From: Alphaproteobacteria bacterium
Lineage (GTDB): Bacteria; Pseudomonadota; Alphaproteobacteria; Rs-D84
Reading direction: 5' to 3'
NCBI GenBank assembly: GCA_017436325.1
Contig: JAFSDI010000004.1
Span: forward strand, 1-41,416
Length of the DNA: 41,416 nt
The notes beneath the pieces are model-generated. The model searched no databases. It had not been told where the DNA came from and worked only from the letters and a program-made list of their open reading frames with translations. This document shows positions 31,807 to 34,831 of the stretch, in pieces; the first letter of the stretch is position 1, and each line of letters starts with the position of its first letter. The position numbers and the translations under genes are program-made.

Positions 31807-31910
31807 AATTAAATATAATAATATATCTAAAATCCACCCCGACAACTTATGTAGCGTTTGTACACTGCGTTGTCGGGGTGAATTTTATCTATATCATTAT
31901 CTTTAATTTT
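31805..31910 (+). repeat. Long hairpin element starting at the FKBP gene stop codon
   Basis: Left arm 31805-31846 and right arm 31869-31910 pair almost perfectly. The inner stem CCACCCCGACAAC differs from that after groEL, but the first 27 bases of the left arm are identical with those at 7274-7300. The loop (31847-31868) is the common one. Confidence 0.95.
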
Positions 31911-32020
31911 ATCCCCAGTGCAAGGGGGCGACAACTTATGTAGCGTTTGTACACTGCGTTGTCGGGGTGAATTTTATCTGCACCTTTATCTTTAATTTTA
32001 TTGCCAAGCAAGGGGGCTGG
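31911..32020 (+). repeat. Second hairpin element after the FKBP gene
   Basis: Linker CAGTGCAAGGGGG (31916-31928), then stem CGACAAC (31929-31935), the common loop (31936-31957) and GTTGTCG, continuing into a copy of the right arm and a further CAAGCAAGGGGGC linker. Confidence 0.92.
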
Positions 32021-32147: not shown

Positions 32148-32507
32148 TTACCAGCCACCGAATAATTGCTTGTCACAACCGATTAATTCCATACCACTGA
32201 CACTGGTAAATAATTGTAATACAGTTCCGATTCCAAATAGTAAAACAAAGCCAATAATCATCGGAATTCCGACTGTTTTGATGCCTGTTACCATATCATC
32301 TTTGCCTGCAATTTTTTTCTCGGATATTGCTTCCCATGCGTATTTTGCCAGAATAAATCCAGCACCGACAAATGCAAATGTACGAATAATTTTAAAAACG
32401 CTTTGCATTTCTGTAATTAATTCGCACAGGCCATTTGTTTCTGCAGCCGATACGGGTAAATTAGTGATGCACAGTATTGTTGTTATGAAAAAAAGTTTTT
32501 TATTCAT
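32148..32507 (-). CDS. virB2: VirB2/TrbC-like pilin
   Basis: A 119-residue protein with a signal peptide (about 1-22, cleavage near VSAA) and two hydrophobic segments (about 40-57, FAFVGAGFILAKYAWEA, and about 75-95, IPMIIGFVLLFGIG) joined by a basic turn (SEKKIAGKDD). This order is the VirB2/TrbC pilin plan. Two Cys residues (LCEL and IGCD) could form a disulfide. AAGGGAAA precedes ATG 32507; the longer frame upstream crosses the RNA-B terminator and is not coding. Its leader is the structured RNA-B. The 29-residue gene follows. Confidence 0.8.
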   Translation of the reverse strand: MNKKLFFITTILCITNLPVSAAETNGLCELITEMQSVFKIIRTFAFVGAGFILAKYAWEAISEKKIAGKDDMVTGIKTVGIPMIIGFVLLFGIGTVLQLFTSVSGMELIGCDKQLFGGW

Positions 32508-32533
32508 ATTTTTCCCTTTTTTTGTTGTTATGT

Positions 32534-32784
32534 TAAAAAACCGCCAAGGGAAAACGGCGGTCGGGGTGTTAGAAAAACACAATACGATGTTCCTGTCGGT
32601 TTTTGGGGCAGGTCGCCCCTGTTGTATAACCGACAGCACCCCGACATTATGTCTGGGTATGAATTTGCACAATAAATGGCGCTGAAATGCGCCCCATAAT
32701 GTGCATGGGATTTGACACAAAATATGTGTCTGCGTATTGTAGGCTTTCTAAGGCCCCGAAACCACGTTCCCTTGTAGTTTCGCA
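32534..32784 (-). ncRNA. Structured RNA-B, leader-like, upstream of virB2
   Basis: Transcribed from a promoter at 32791-32819 toward virB2. From 5' to 3': a block with AAGGGAACGTGGTTTCGGGG; a hairpin GACACA/TGTGTC; a hairpin TGCACA/TTGTGCA enclosing GGCGC/GCGCC; a 9-bp stem GTCGGGGTG/CACCCCGAC (32637-32645 with 32560-32568) enclosing a perfect 9-bp stem CTGTCGGTT/AACCGACAG; and a terminator CCGCC/GGCGG with T-run (32535-32560). The 5' and 3' blocks match RNA-A. The terminator ends about 28 bp before the virB2 ATG. Not recognised as a known family. Confidence 0.72.
32535..32560 (-). terminator. Intrinsic terminator of RNA-B
   Basis: Minus strand: CCGCC, loop GTTTTCCCTT, GGCGG followed by TTTTTT. 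The loop contains TTCCCTT, complementary to AAGGGAA near the 5' end of the same RNA. Confidence 0.85.
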
Positions 32785-32790
32785 CTTTCT

Positions 32791-32819
32791 AGTGTATCAA
32801 AGTTTCTTTGTTTTTACAA
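32791..32819 (-). promoter_or_regulatory. Promoter of RNA-B
   Basis: Minus strand: TTGTAA (32819-32814), 17-nt spacer, TACACT (32796-32791). Predicted start about 32784. Confidence 0.5.
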
Positions 32820-32858
32820 GAATTAAAAATTATTTAGATTTCTTTTTGTTTTTTTATA

Positions 32859-32888
32859 TTTACAATAAATTGTAAACTGTGTTATAAT
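32859..32888 (+). promoter_or_regulatory. Promoter of RNA-A with an embedded palindrome
   Basis: TTTACA (32859-32864), an 18-nt spacer and TATAAT (32883-32888). The -35 box is part of a palindrome TTTACAAT-AA-ATTGTAAA (32859-32876), a likely repressor or activator site. Confidence 0.65.
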
Positions 32889-32894
32889 ATATTT

Positions 32895-33135
32895 TGAACT
32901 GGATGGGAATCTGGTTCGGGGCTGTAGCAGGCCTTACCTAAAAGCGGTATCGTAAAACGATACTGAATCCGCGACAAAAGGGCGCGTAAGCGTCTTTTAT
33001 TGTTTCCCCACCAGCCAAAAAGGTCGGGGAGCCGTCAGTTTATATAACAGGGTTTCCCGAAGGCTGGCGGAATCAGACTTTTAGGTGATTTGCTAACTCC
33101 CCGACCGCACGAATTCCCGTTGCGGTTTGTTTTTA
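32895..33135 (+). ncRNA. Structured RNA-A, leader-like, upstream of the BspA-like operon
   Basis: From 5' to 3': a block with GGGAATCTGGTTCGGGGC (from 32905); hairpin GTATCGT/ACGATAC (32947-32963); hairpin AAAAGGGCGC/GCGTCTTTT (about 32976-32998); CTGG..GGGAA (32899-32909) can pair with TTCCCC-A-CCAG (33003-33014) to close the first domain; a perfect 10-bp stem GGTCGGGGAG/CTCCCCGACC (33022-33031 with 33097-33106) encloses CCGTCAG/CTGGCGG (33032-33038 with 33064-33070); then a terminator. No tmRNA, RNase P, 6S or SRP landmark is seen. Homologous in order to RNA-B. Confidence 0.75.
33104..33133 (+). terminator. Intrinsic terminator of RNA-A
   Basis: ACCGCA, loop CGAATTCCCG(T), TGCGGT, then TTGTTTTT. 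It shares its first bases with the 3' side of the long stem, so the two hairpins compete slightly. The loop contains ATTCCC, complementary to GGGAAT near the 5' end. Confidence 0.85.
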
Positions 33136-33177
33136 TAAAAAATAATAATAAAACCCTAAATAGATGGAGGGAGCAAA

Positions 33178-33423
33178 ATGAAAAAAACAACTATTTTAAC
33201 ACTTACACTAATTTCAACAACTGCGCCGGCAGTCGCAAGTATTCCATCCAGTGCATTTATGCGGGAACAGATTACCGCACAAATCACAACCGCAATATCG
33301 TCTAAGGTCGACACATCGGCATCCGCAAATCAGACAATGGCGGGAACATATACGGTTTCTGGTTCAATGAATGTGACGGGCAGTCTTGTTGCCCCAACTG
33401 CACCACTGCCAACCGCAGAATAA
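33178..33423 (+). CDS. Small secreted protein, first gene of the BspA-like unit
   Basis: Unrecognised 81-residue protein with a signal peptide (about 1-20, TAPAVAS) and a mature part rich in Ser, Thr and Ala (AQITTAISSKVDTSASANQT, TYTVSGSMNVTGSL). GGAGGGAG precedes the ATG. It lies 43 bp behind the RNA-A terminator and 16 bp before the repeat-protein gene, so the two are cotranscribed. No Cys, no membrane segment. The repetitive strand-like pattern could support a surface or fibre role, but no family is evident. Confidence 0.72.
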   Translation: MKKTTILTLTLISTTAPAVASIPSSAFMREQITAQITTAISSKVDTSASANQTMAGTYTVSGSMNVTGSLVAPTAPLPTAE

Positions 33424-33439
33424 TAACAAGGGGGCAATC

Positions 33440-34831
33440 GTGAAAAAAATACTGTTATTATTTTTTGGATTTTTATGTATCTTTGCGGCGAATGCGGCAC
33501 AGGTTGCAAATGTTGAATATGTACACACACTGATTGAACAAGAATGGGATATCAGCATTCCGTACAATTCCGCCCTATCAGACGTTCATACGGTTGCGAA
33601 TATGAAATACTTGCTGACGGCGATTGATGTTGCAAATGAAATTTTAAATGGTGAAAAAACCACAAACTATGGCAACGGCGAATTTGCGACACTTCAGGTC
33701 GCCGATACAATCGCCACAAATCAGGCAGTGGAAACGTTAATTGAAAAGGAAGAAAAATACAAATTTTTTGTTACAATTGATCAAAATCTTTTTCCAATGG
33801 GGCGTAAATCTTTTTTCGGTTTTGAAATCAGCGCCGCAGGGACATTTTATATTGATTGGGGTGATGGTACCGAAGAAACAATAGTAAAAAATAATACTGA
33901 TAAAGTAGAATATTTACATGATTATGGAACAAAGGATGCGGTTTATACAATTAAAATTGGTGGACGGGCCACAATGTATCTTCAGGATTATTCAGCAATA
34001 CATTTTGGTGGCGGATCGGGCTTTACTAGCAGTGACGACAATGCTAAAATCATAAGTCAAATAGATGGTTCATTAGGAAAAATTTTTAGAACATTACCTG
34101 ATGGTTCCCAACCAACATTTATGAGTACTTTTGACCATGCTTCTAACCTAAAAACTATACCTGCGGGATTATTTTCTGGTATATATGGTGCACCAGTAAG
34201 TAATATGTTTAATCACACCTTTGCTTGGTGCCATAATTTAACATCAATACCTGCGAGATTATTTTCTGGCATCTCTGGCGCACCGGCAAAGAATATGTTC
34301 CTCGGCACTTTTTCTGATTGCCTTAGTTTGACATCGATCCCAGATGGATTATTTGCGGGTATATCTGGCGCACCTGCAAGTTATATGTTCAGCGGCACCT
34401 TTCAAGGTTGTAGTAAATTAACATCAATCCCAGCTGGATTATTTGTGGGTATATCTGGCGCACCAGCAGAGAGTATGTTCAACAGCACCTTTTCTGGTTG
34501 CAGTGGTTTGACTGGCGCAATTCCCGATGGGTTATTTGGTAATCTAACTGGCGCACCTGCAAGTAATATGTTCCTCGGCACCTTTCAAGATTGCAGTAAA
34601 TTAACATCAATCCCAGAAAACCTGTTTGGGAATATTTCTGGTACGGCACAGGATTATATGTTCAAGAATACATTCTATAACTGCACATCATTAACCGGCA
34701 CATCTGCACGTATAAATGGACAATACCTGTATGAAATCTGGCCAGATGCAAATTCAGACCAAGTTGGTGGTATGTACAAAAACGCAACAGGGTTGTCTGA
34801 TTATTCCAACATCCCAAGCGCGTGGAAATAA
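33440..34831 (+). CDS. Secreted BspA-like (DUF285-type) repeat protein
   Basis: A 463-residue protein starting at a GTG after AAGGGGG. Signal peptide (about 1-19, FAANAA), an N-terminal region with no known family (20-110), a domain with the WGDGTEE motif (about 139, typical of BspA/DUF285 surface proteins), and six 30-residue repeats (about 238-430) of the form IPxxLFxGISGAPAxxMFxxTFxxCxxLTS. Each repeat has one Cys and a Gly-Ala-Pro turn; the repeats should form a leucine-rich-repeat-like solenoid. Such proteins usually bind host or matrix surfaces. It is the second gene behind RNA-A. A TTG at 33386 is in frame but inside the preceding gene. Confidence 0.85.
   Translation: MKKILLLFFGFLCIFAANAAQVANVEYVHTLIEQEWDISIPYNSALSDVHTVANMKYLLTAIDVANEILNGEKTTNYGNGEFATLQVADTIATNQAVETLIEKEEKYKFFVTIDQNLFPMGRKSFFGFEISAAGTFYIDWGDGTEETIVKNNTDKVEYLHDYGTKDAVYTIKIGGRATMYLQDYSAIHFGGGSGFTSSDDNAKIISQIDGSLGKIFRTLPDGSQPTFMSTFDHASNLKTIPAGLFSGIYGAPVSNMFNHTFAWCHNLTSIPARLFSGISGAPAKNMFLGTFSDCLSLTSIPDGLFAGISGAPASYMFSGTFQGCSKLTSIPAGLFVGISGAPAESMFNSTFSGCSGLTGAIPDGLFGNLTGAPASNMFLGTFQDCSKLTSIPENLFGNISGTAQDYMFKNTFYNCTSLTGTSARINGQYLYEIWPDANSDQVGGMYKNATGLSDYSNIPSAWK
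34140..34705 (+). repeat. 90-bp coding repeats of the BspA-like gene
   Basis: About six units of 90 bp, each with GGCGCACC(A/T/G)GCA for Gly-Ala-Pro-Ala and ATGTTC for Met-Phe, diverged at third positions and in the stretch after TTT. Copy five has an extra residue (LTGAIPDG). Confidence 0.85.

Follow-up and report, generated by a model that had tools for sequence, protein, structure and literature searches.

The window, by which we mean the whole 41,416-nucleotide stretch of alphaproteobacterial DNA that was analysed, carries two divergent leader RNAs that belong to a large family in the same genome. On balance we favour the reading that these leaders control the adjoining gene by stopping RNA polymerase at a terminator-like hairpin or letting it read through, and that they are related to phage control RNAs of the C4 type that were reused for envelope genes; this reading is built on sequence patterns and folding models. 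An earlier note on this DNA had placed two structured RNAs here, one on each strand. Indeed, the plus-strand leader folds with a z of -6.61 and the minus-strand leader with a z of -7.91, and none of 200 dinucleotide shuffles of either was as good. The shared sequence blocks of the two RNAs were present as listed in that note, and the arrangement it described was also seen, namely a leader with a terminator-like hairpin just before a gene and a signal-peptide-like protein downstream; a promoter-like site of the leader's own was found as well.

Features of the two leader RNAs and the genes behind them (positions in the window)
Feature	Position	Strand	Basis
Plus-strand leader RNA, through T-rich tail	~32899..33136	+	sequence, folding, model match
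Promoter-like site of plus leader, TTTACA-18 nt-TATAAT	32859..32888	+	11/12 consensus matches
P0, 5' hairpin CTGGAT-GGGA-ATCTGG; GGGAAT also complementary to terminator loop	32899..32914	+	
P1 5' strand CGGGG, partner 33099-33103	32917..32921	+	nearly invariant in window's genome
P2 5' strand TAGCAGG, partner 33089-33095	32925..32931	+	covariation, own vs swapped
P3 5' strand ACCTAAAAG, partner 33078-33086	32936..32944	+	covariation, own vs swapped
PX 5' strand GTCGGGG, outer stem of Rfam RF02221	33023..33029	+	RF02221 alignment
P7 hairpin AATCA...TGATT, P3 3' strand in loop, alternative fold	33071..33090	+	
CCCCGAC, 3' strand contested between P1 and PX	33099..33105	+	invariant in 33 copies
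Terminator-like hairpin CCGCA...TGCGG, AATTCCC in 11-nt loop, T-rich tail	33105..33135	+	sequence
81-aa protein, signal-peptide-like start, first gene after plus leader	33178..33423	+	
PARCEL-repeat (BspA-like) ORF, GTG start, after 81-aa gene	33440..34831	+	TIGR02167, E 5.6e-9
Minus-strand leader RNA, same architecture as plus copy	~32532..32788	-	92.5 bits (R1), folding
Minus-copy P1 5' strand CGGGG	32754..32758	-	
Minus-copy P2 5' strand TTAGAAAG, partner TTTTTCTAA about 32569-32577	32744..32751	-	
Minus-copy P3 5' strand ACAATACG, partner CGTATTGT 32579-32586	32733..32740	-	
Minus-copy contested 3' strand CCCCGAC, PX partner 32639-32645	32560..32566	-	
Minus-copy terminator-like hairpin, TTTTCCC in loop, T run	32535..32560	-	6 pairs
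119-aa protein, signal-peptide-like start, after minus leader ('virB2' in the earlier note)	32148..32507	-	

Seven promoter-like sites were detected where 2.2 were expected by chance, and the site of the plus leader is among these seven. By eye, TTTACAA...TATAAT-type sequences were also found upstream of many copies in the window's genome. The terminator scan found four hairpins versus 1.1 expected, the minus-copy terminator being one of them; the plus-copy terminator was missed, probably because the scan takes loops of 3-8 only. The plus copy had been placed before a BspA-like operon; the 81-aa gene stands first there, followed by the ORF matching TIGR02167 (the open-reading-frame list starts the same frame at 33386). 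The 119-aa protein behind the minus copy, whose frame starts from a TTG at 32720 in the ORF list, matched nothing in Pfam (E<=0.1) or in NCBIfam (E<=1). Its earlier name 'virB2' therefore stays a label, based on length, signal peptide and a T2SSE ATPase gene nearby. A tRNA and tmRNA search returned none, and an Rfam scan of the window gave no family at the gathering threshold. At 31835-31985, behind an FKBP-type gene, we noticed by eye two direct copies of an inverted repeat of about 50 nt (CACCCCGACAAC...GTTGTCGGGGTG), which might be a repeated bidirectional terminator.

The two RNAs had been thought of as a duplication. Repeated use was indeed found, but the term understates it. When the window's own genome was searched by blastn with the plus copy, 59 pieces matched; on reading these places we counted 37 copies, of which four are truncated at contig ends. 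We then used R1, a covariance model of the leader 3' part built from 33 copies of this genome, the E-values of which are rough owing to a short calibration. At a cut-off of E<=0.01, R1 recovered the 3' part 48 times in the genome of 1.04 Mb. These 48 copies comprise 35 of the 37 blastn-read copies and 13 further ones; the two blastn-read copies that R1 did not match are 5' halves cut at contig ends. By eye, most of the 13 further copies carry the same 5' and 3' blocks, and one of them (L232) has no 5' block. The ends of four contigs of this genome (C9, C29, C17 and C32) fall inside leader copies. The leader family thus breaks up the assembly, and the true copy number may deviate a little from 48. 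A covariance-model search for homologues, as proposed in the earlier note, was successful beyond this genome as well, with R1 matches in 128 of the 141 genus genomes searched and in 170 of the 190 order genomes (17 of 22 genera). Among genomes sampled from the class, 24 of 289 had matches, three of them in the window's genus, and among those sampled from the phylum 7 of 299, all in the same class and two in the window's genus. At most 28, 20, 13 and 13 candidates per genome were scored in the genus, order, class and phylum searches, respectively, and the copies per genome outside the window's genome are hence lower bounds. Two of three viral-contig matches to the 5' block (L222 and L223) look like complete leaders, and L223 stands before a protein with a signal-peptide-like start.

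Within each leader, four 5' segments are complementary, in order, to four 3' segments: P0 to the terminator loop, P1 to CCCCG, and P2 and P3 to partners of their own. P0, P2 and P3 covary with these partners between copies. Conservation of the structure by compensating changes had been claimed from two copies, which alone are insufficient to prove it; it holds on 33 full copies of the window's genome. In the nested fold (P0, P1, P2, P3, P4, P5, P6 and terminator) 93.7% of cells are paired, compared with 35-43% in a control in which the partners were shifted by 1-3 columns, and two-sided changes occur in 33 of 62 pairs. For P2 all cells (100%) are paired and four of seven pairs show two-sided changes, for P3 the values are 94% and eight of eight, and P1 is invariant but for one cell. 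An alignment-free comparison of own with swapped partners gave 6.21 vs 3.21 for P2 and 8.85 vs 4.16 for P3 (33 copies; 0/5000 permutations as good in both cases). P0 and the terminator loop share at least five contiguous pairs in 33/33 copies, and their own partners again scored better than swapped ones, both in the window's genome (8.32 vs 7.27, 33 copies) and in the order (6.35 vs 5.13, 30 of 34 loci, three order rows being dropped), with 0/5000 permutations each. Examples of joint change of P0 and terminator loop are L046, L054 and L057.

The 3' domain can also fold differently. CCCCGAC then pairs with GTCGGGG (PX), which, with P7, gives the fold of sRNA-Xcc1. This fold of PX, P6 and second hairpin has 93.6% of cells paired versus 34-48% when slid (33 copies), and P7 has 99.4% paired with one of five pairs changed on both sides. 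For this 3' strand, the long GTCGGGG...CCCCGAC stem proposed earlier is in competition with a long-range stem formed with the 5' block. A single local attenuator stem was discarded in favour of the long-range 5'-3' pairings. In the plus copy, the PX 5' strand itself has two possible partners, either the weaker P5 strand just upstream or 33099-33105.

The genes behind the leaders were analysed for signal-peptide-like starts, called by a crude hydrophobicity rule. In a first survey of the 35 copies of the window's genome with a 3' end, 34 yielded a gene, and 33 of these start 17-45 nt past the RNA with a signal-peptide-like start. The 13 further copies yielded 12 genes, nine with such a start. 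In total, 42 of 46 readable downstream genes among the 48 copies pass the rule, compared to a baseline of 69 of 273 called ORFs of at least 100 aa in the same stretches, leader genes included. In 34 order relatives the downstream gene has a similar position and 22 pass the rule; the others include glycosyltransferases and sulfatase-type proteins. A Pfam scan of 58 downstream proteins found no family common to more than two. Many exported proteins of the window's genome begin with ...ASI(V/I)SxGFxxE. At L036, L039, L047, L056 and other loci of this genome, paralogous exported proteins combine this near-constant N-terminus with differing C-terminal parts. In a homologue search with an exported protein, many matches are 80-99% identical over only about a quarter of the query, and the few homologues with an organism name are called Alphaproteobacteria bacterium. 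Behind copy L046 (4622-4743, minus strand) a very short ORF stops after seven codons and the next frame lies at 121 nt, so this gene looks broken. Three copies of the window's genome, L231 (at 164 and 680) and L232, have a variant closing sequence, AACTGTCCCGACCAC; two of them form a tandem whose downstream gene encodes a small protein lacking a signal peptide, and one is without the 5' half.

Two other explanations were weighed. We regard it as very improbable that the RNA acts independently as a small RNA, terminated at its own hairpin and with no control over the gene behind. Its own promoter-like site and terminator-like hairpin would fit such an RNA, as would the short transcripts seen for Brt and sRNA-Xcc1 in the available parts of PMC5387305 and PMC2996969, but the close and regular gene start behind 33 of 34 copies and the similar position in relatives argue against it, as does the fact that the terminator loop itself lies within the covarying structure. 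It is hardly credible to us that the repeats are mobile-element or recombination hairpins with no expressed RNA, although they are dispersed near-repeats, several contigs end inside copies, and integron cassettes carry sRNA-Xcc1 according to the accessible text of PMC12444791. Orientation and start-codon spacing are fixed, promoter-like and terminator-like sites are present, and the long-range pairs covary.

The downstream genes start so close to the RNA that there is little room for a separate promoter, and they would therefore depend on read-through. We propose that, during transcription, P3, P2 and P1 zip in succession like a clamp and bring P0 to the emerging terminator loop. With P0 holding this loop, the terminator would fail and the gene would be on. 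Alternatively, the 3' domain could form its own internal fold (PX with P7, the Rfam sRNA-Xcc1 fold); the clamp would then stay open, transcription would end after about 240 nt and the gene would be off. In folding calculations, the forced P0:terminator form differed from the forced terminator form by +0.6 kcal/mol (sd 1.6, n=33; all 33 within 5), and the terminator form was better or equal in 26 of 33 copies. With P0 shuffled, the same difference was +4.7 kcal/mol (sd 3.9, n=132; Mann-Whitney p 1.8e-9). These near-equal energies suggest, at the level of the folding model, a poised antitermination switch. Forcing PX costs 14.1 kcal/mol on average in nested folding; RNAfold is unable to score pseudoknots. 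Equating the clamped state with an active gene is a choice, and the assignment could be the reverse. P0 might make a kissing contact with the loop that does not disrupt the terminator stem, or that even makes it stronger. In addition, the terminator stem shares its first bases with PX, an overlap that would speak for swapping on and off.

The suggestion of an attenuator or riboswitch in the earlier note fared differently in its two halves. The terminator-like hairpin and the alternative pairings support a putative attenuation, but nothing found here points to a small-molecule ligand. It seems quite unlikely to us that the RNA is a riboswitch whose fold is set by a metabolite or ion binding to the unpaired, conserved blocks (TATACAACAGG...AAA and neighbours). 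Such blocks do lie among freely varying stems, and one RNA with a terminator-like hairpin at its end does precede many envelope genes. However, scans of the window and of sampled loci gave no Rfam riboswitch match, and antirepressors, SymE, XRE proteins, exported proteins and glycosyltransferases have no metabolic theme in common.

The RNA has a relative in sRNA-Xcc1, which was reportedly first described as an integron-borne RNA (RNA Biol, 2011). The earlier note had held that an Rfam family with another role would speak against its reading, and this applies by half: RF02221 (sRNA-Xcc1) matches the two window copies with 42.1 and 30.8 bits, below the gathering score of 53. The 87-position model shares with them the PX closing stem, P6 with its ATACAA motif and the second hairpin. 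It covers only the 3' part, and the 5' half of the leader is absent from it. In the available excerpt of PMC2996969, sRNA-Xcc1 is an 88-nt RNA with mapped ends; this extent equals that of the Rfam model, which starts at the PX strand. In the phylum sample RF02221 matched 47 of 249 genomes, 32 of them over the cut-off. Extending 15 sRNA-Xcc1 loci in the 5' direction revealed a G-rich hairpin; in most loci its loop can pair with the segment that precedes the 3' strand of PX, as in the window family. In a restricted P2 test, in which the hairpin was chosen by its stem alone, own loops were better than swapped loops in sRNA-Xcc1 loci (12 of 15 used), in distant alphaproteobacterial loci (16 of 18 used) and in order loci (30 of 34 used), with 0/5000 permutations as good in each group. 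For the alphaproteobacterial group, a narrower search range that cut off short leaders had given 10/5000 and was then widened. This test replaced an unrestricted duplex search, for which 4, 687 and 60 of 5000 permutations were as good (RF02221, alphaproteobacterial and order loci, respectively). L093, L102, L107, L117 and L120 were dropped for having no recognisable PX strand, as were one further RF02221 row and three order rows.

Phage-type genes stand behind several of these RNAs. Pfam families were found behind 7 of the 15 sRNA-Xcc1 loci, namely Bro-N at three (one below cut-off), P22_AR_N at two, KilA-N at one and SymE at one; 14 of the 15 downstream proteins were scanned (L119 was left out) and seven of the 14 are without family. 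At L115, L116, L121 and L122 the distance from the RNA to the matched frame is 109-224 nt, with a nearer start codon in between. Haemophilus phage Aaphi23, Escherichia phage Rac-SA53 and Acinetobacter phage 4316 carry the RNA at 78-86 bits, and the genes behind it are annotated ant, ant and KilA-N, respectively. Blast searches gave no match in phages with L113 and two partial ones in plasmids. Both variable 3' segments also match the region of the ribosome-binding site (RBS) in the 15 sRNA-Xcc1 loci plus the three phages: P2 scored 6.64 vs 5.32 swapped and P3 6.72 vs 4.90 swapped, each with 0/5000 permutations and 0/300 shuffles as good. In the window's genome the segments showed no such match: of 5000 permutations, 538 and 735 reached the observed score. 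Elsewhere it was not clear, with 126 (P2) and 446 (P3) of 3000 permutations as good in alphaproteobacterial loci, 2666 and 577 in order loci, and 61 and 956 in Bartonella. The window RNAs thus keep the 5'-3' pairing and not the RBS pairing, and have a terminator-like hairpin instead.

A further branch was seen in Bartonella, a genus of the same class. R1 gave no significant match there (best E 0.2); the link was found by reading a weak match, L139 (E 0.43), and then named loci. In the other weak match, L138, the plan was not seen. We collected 44 distinct leaders of 185-193 nt (between chosen anchors) from 49 loci around Bartonella XRE genes, and these have the same P0, P2, P3, PX, P6 and P7 plan as the window family. 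With P2 and P3 as pseudoknots, 93.3% of cells are paired versus 31-49% when slid. The share of paired cells is 88% for P2 and 78% for P3, with two-sided changes in six of seven pairs in each. Own partners were better than swapped ones (0/2000 permutations); in this comparison five P3 rows score low because the segment was cut short on extraction. In the pair counts, further pair types were not above shuffles (158/500), but the other measures were. P2 and P3 are the least conserved helices, at 0.62 and 0.55 compared with 0.76 for unpaired columns. Five copies are without the TATGTCCA motif. On our reading, P2 or P3 is also mismatched in four of these five, but in just two or three of the remaining 39 (Fisher p 0.0005-0.001). 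At L143:913, L164, L174, L179, L180 and L183:496 the 5' and 3' codes are mismatched as if recombined, and four of these six copies also lack the motif. No T run was seen behind the last hairpin of the Bartonella leaders, and the off-switch there may hence differ. In L141 the leaders stand in tandem (529, 912 and 1293) with a spacing of 381-383 nt; clustered sRNA-Xcc1 copies in Xylella are spaced 381-386 nt according to the accessible part of PMC12189769. As far as the available text of PMC5387305 goes, the B. henselae RNAs Brt1-9 are abundant and 194-203 nt long; an XRE gene follows each after 10-18 nt and is poorly transcribed. The leaders collected here are probably the Brt RNAs of other species, an identity that rests on genus, position and similar length, as our loci come from named Bartonella species other than B. 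henselae.

The variable segments P2 and P3 can be read as a code. We compared three bases of P2 and twelve around P3 in all 48 copies of the window's genome. The P3 stretch is common to ten pairs of copies, and P2 and P3 together to one pair, L231 (at 164) and L232; 46 of 48 copies have a private P2/P3 combination. Among the first 35 copies, the lack of shared combinations was not beyond chance (p 0.22). The window copy at 32899, L031 and L032 share a P3 code, as do the members of each of six further pairs, with differing P2 and often differing P0 and terminator. A shared inner part with a differing outside is the pattern that gene conversion of the inner part would leave.

Such individual codes would also fit a control in trans of the C4/IsrK type, in which the terminated leader, or its 3' domain, pairs through P2 and P3 with the 5' half of leaders of the same code, pairing thus occurring both between and within molecules. 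We consider this possible, but doubtful. The RBS matches of both segments in the 18 sRNA-Xcc1 and phage loci, the low conservation of P2 and P3 in Bartonella and the private combinations of 46 copies speak for it. So do the precedent of IsrK, for which the available part of PMC4825925 describes control of this type, and the 88-nt form of sRNA-Xcc1 with the extent of the Rfam model (PMC2996969). Against it, the RBS is unmatched in the window's genome and not clearly matched in order, alphaproteobacterial and Bartonella loci, L231 (164) and L232 share both 3' segments and L232 has no 5' half, the chance result for the first 35 copies removes weight from the codes, and gene conversion of the inner segment would yield the same pattern. 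A bolder version, which we regard as improbable, holds that an RNA lock of the phage immunity type was domesticated and multiplied into 48 leaders, almost every one with its own key. The short terminated RNA of each would recognise only leaders with the same code of independently recombined P2 and P3, allowing a choice among dozens of surface proteins without cross-talk, and Brt and sRNA-Xcc1 would be branches of the same coded family.

Coming back to read-through control of the adjoining gene, which we prefer, its origin can be addressed by the relatives. A related RNA with a third complementary site, at the RBS, precedes phage antirepressor genes, and the ancestor is therefore taken to be a phage C4-like control RNA; we infer that the phage form is ancestral. 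The covarying 5'-3' pairings of P2 and P3, together with relatives before antirepressors and Bartonella XRE genes, likewise suggest an ancestry in RNA-RNA control. One RNA architecture would link a Xanthomonas small RNA tied to virulence regulators, the Bartonella Brt/Trp circuit and the leader family of an alphaproteobacterial order, which are treated apart in the literature we searched; there we found no paper joining sRNA-Xcc1 with Bartonella and none joining it with an antirepressor. If the switch reading is true, it offers a testable mechanism by which as many as 48 genes in a genome of 1 Mb, most of them encoding predicted-exported proteins, are set, and hints at the type of trigger to seek in Bartonella and Xanthomonas. 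An Rfam model extended by the 5' half should annotate many leaders that are now missed.

C4 antisense RNA (RF01695) gave no match at E<=10 in 32400-33200 and none in the other loci scanned, and isrK (RF01394) matched with only 16.2 bits (gathering score 50). We know of no 5' half in C4 that mirrors the target sites. The likeness is one of design, two short antisense segments matching the RBS in the sRNA-Xcc1 group as in C4, and of position, since relatives of the window RNA precede antirepressor genes just as C4 of P1/P7-type phages and IsrK do. The RBS match is present in sRNA-Xcc1 and phage loci and absent from the copies of the window's genome. While sRNA-Xcc1 is followed by antirepressor, KilA-N, SymE or genes without family, and Brt by an XRE helix-turn-helix gene directly downstream, the leaders of the window and its genome stand mostly before exported proteins with signal-peptide-like starts.
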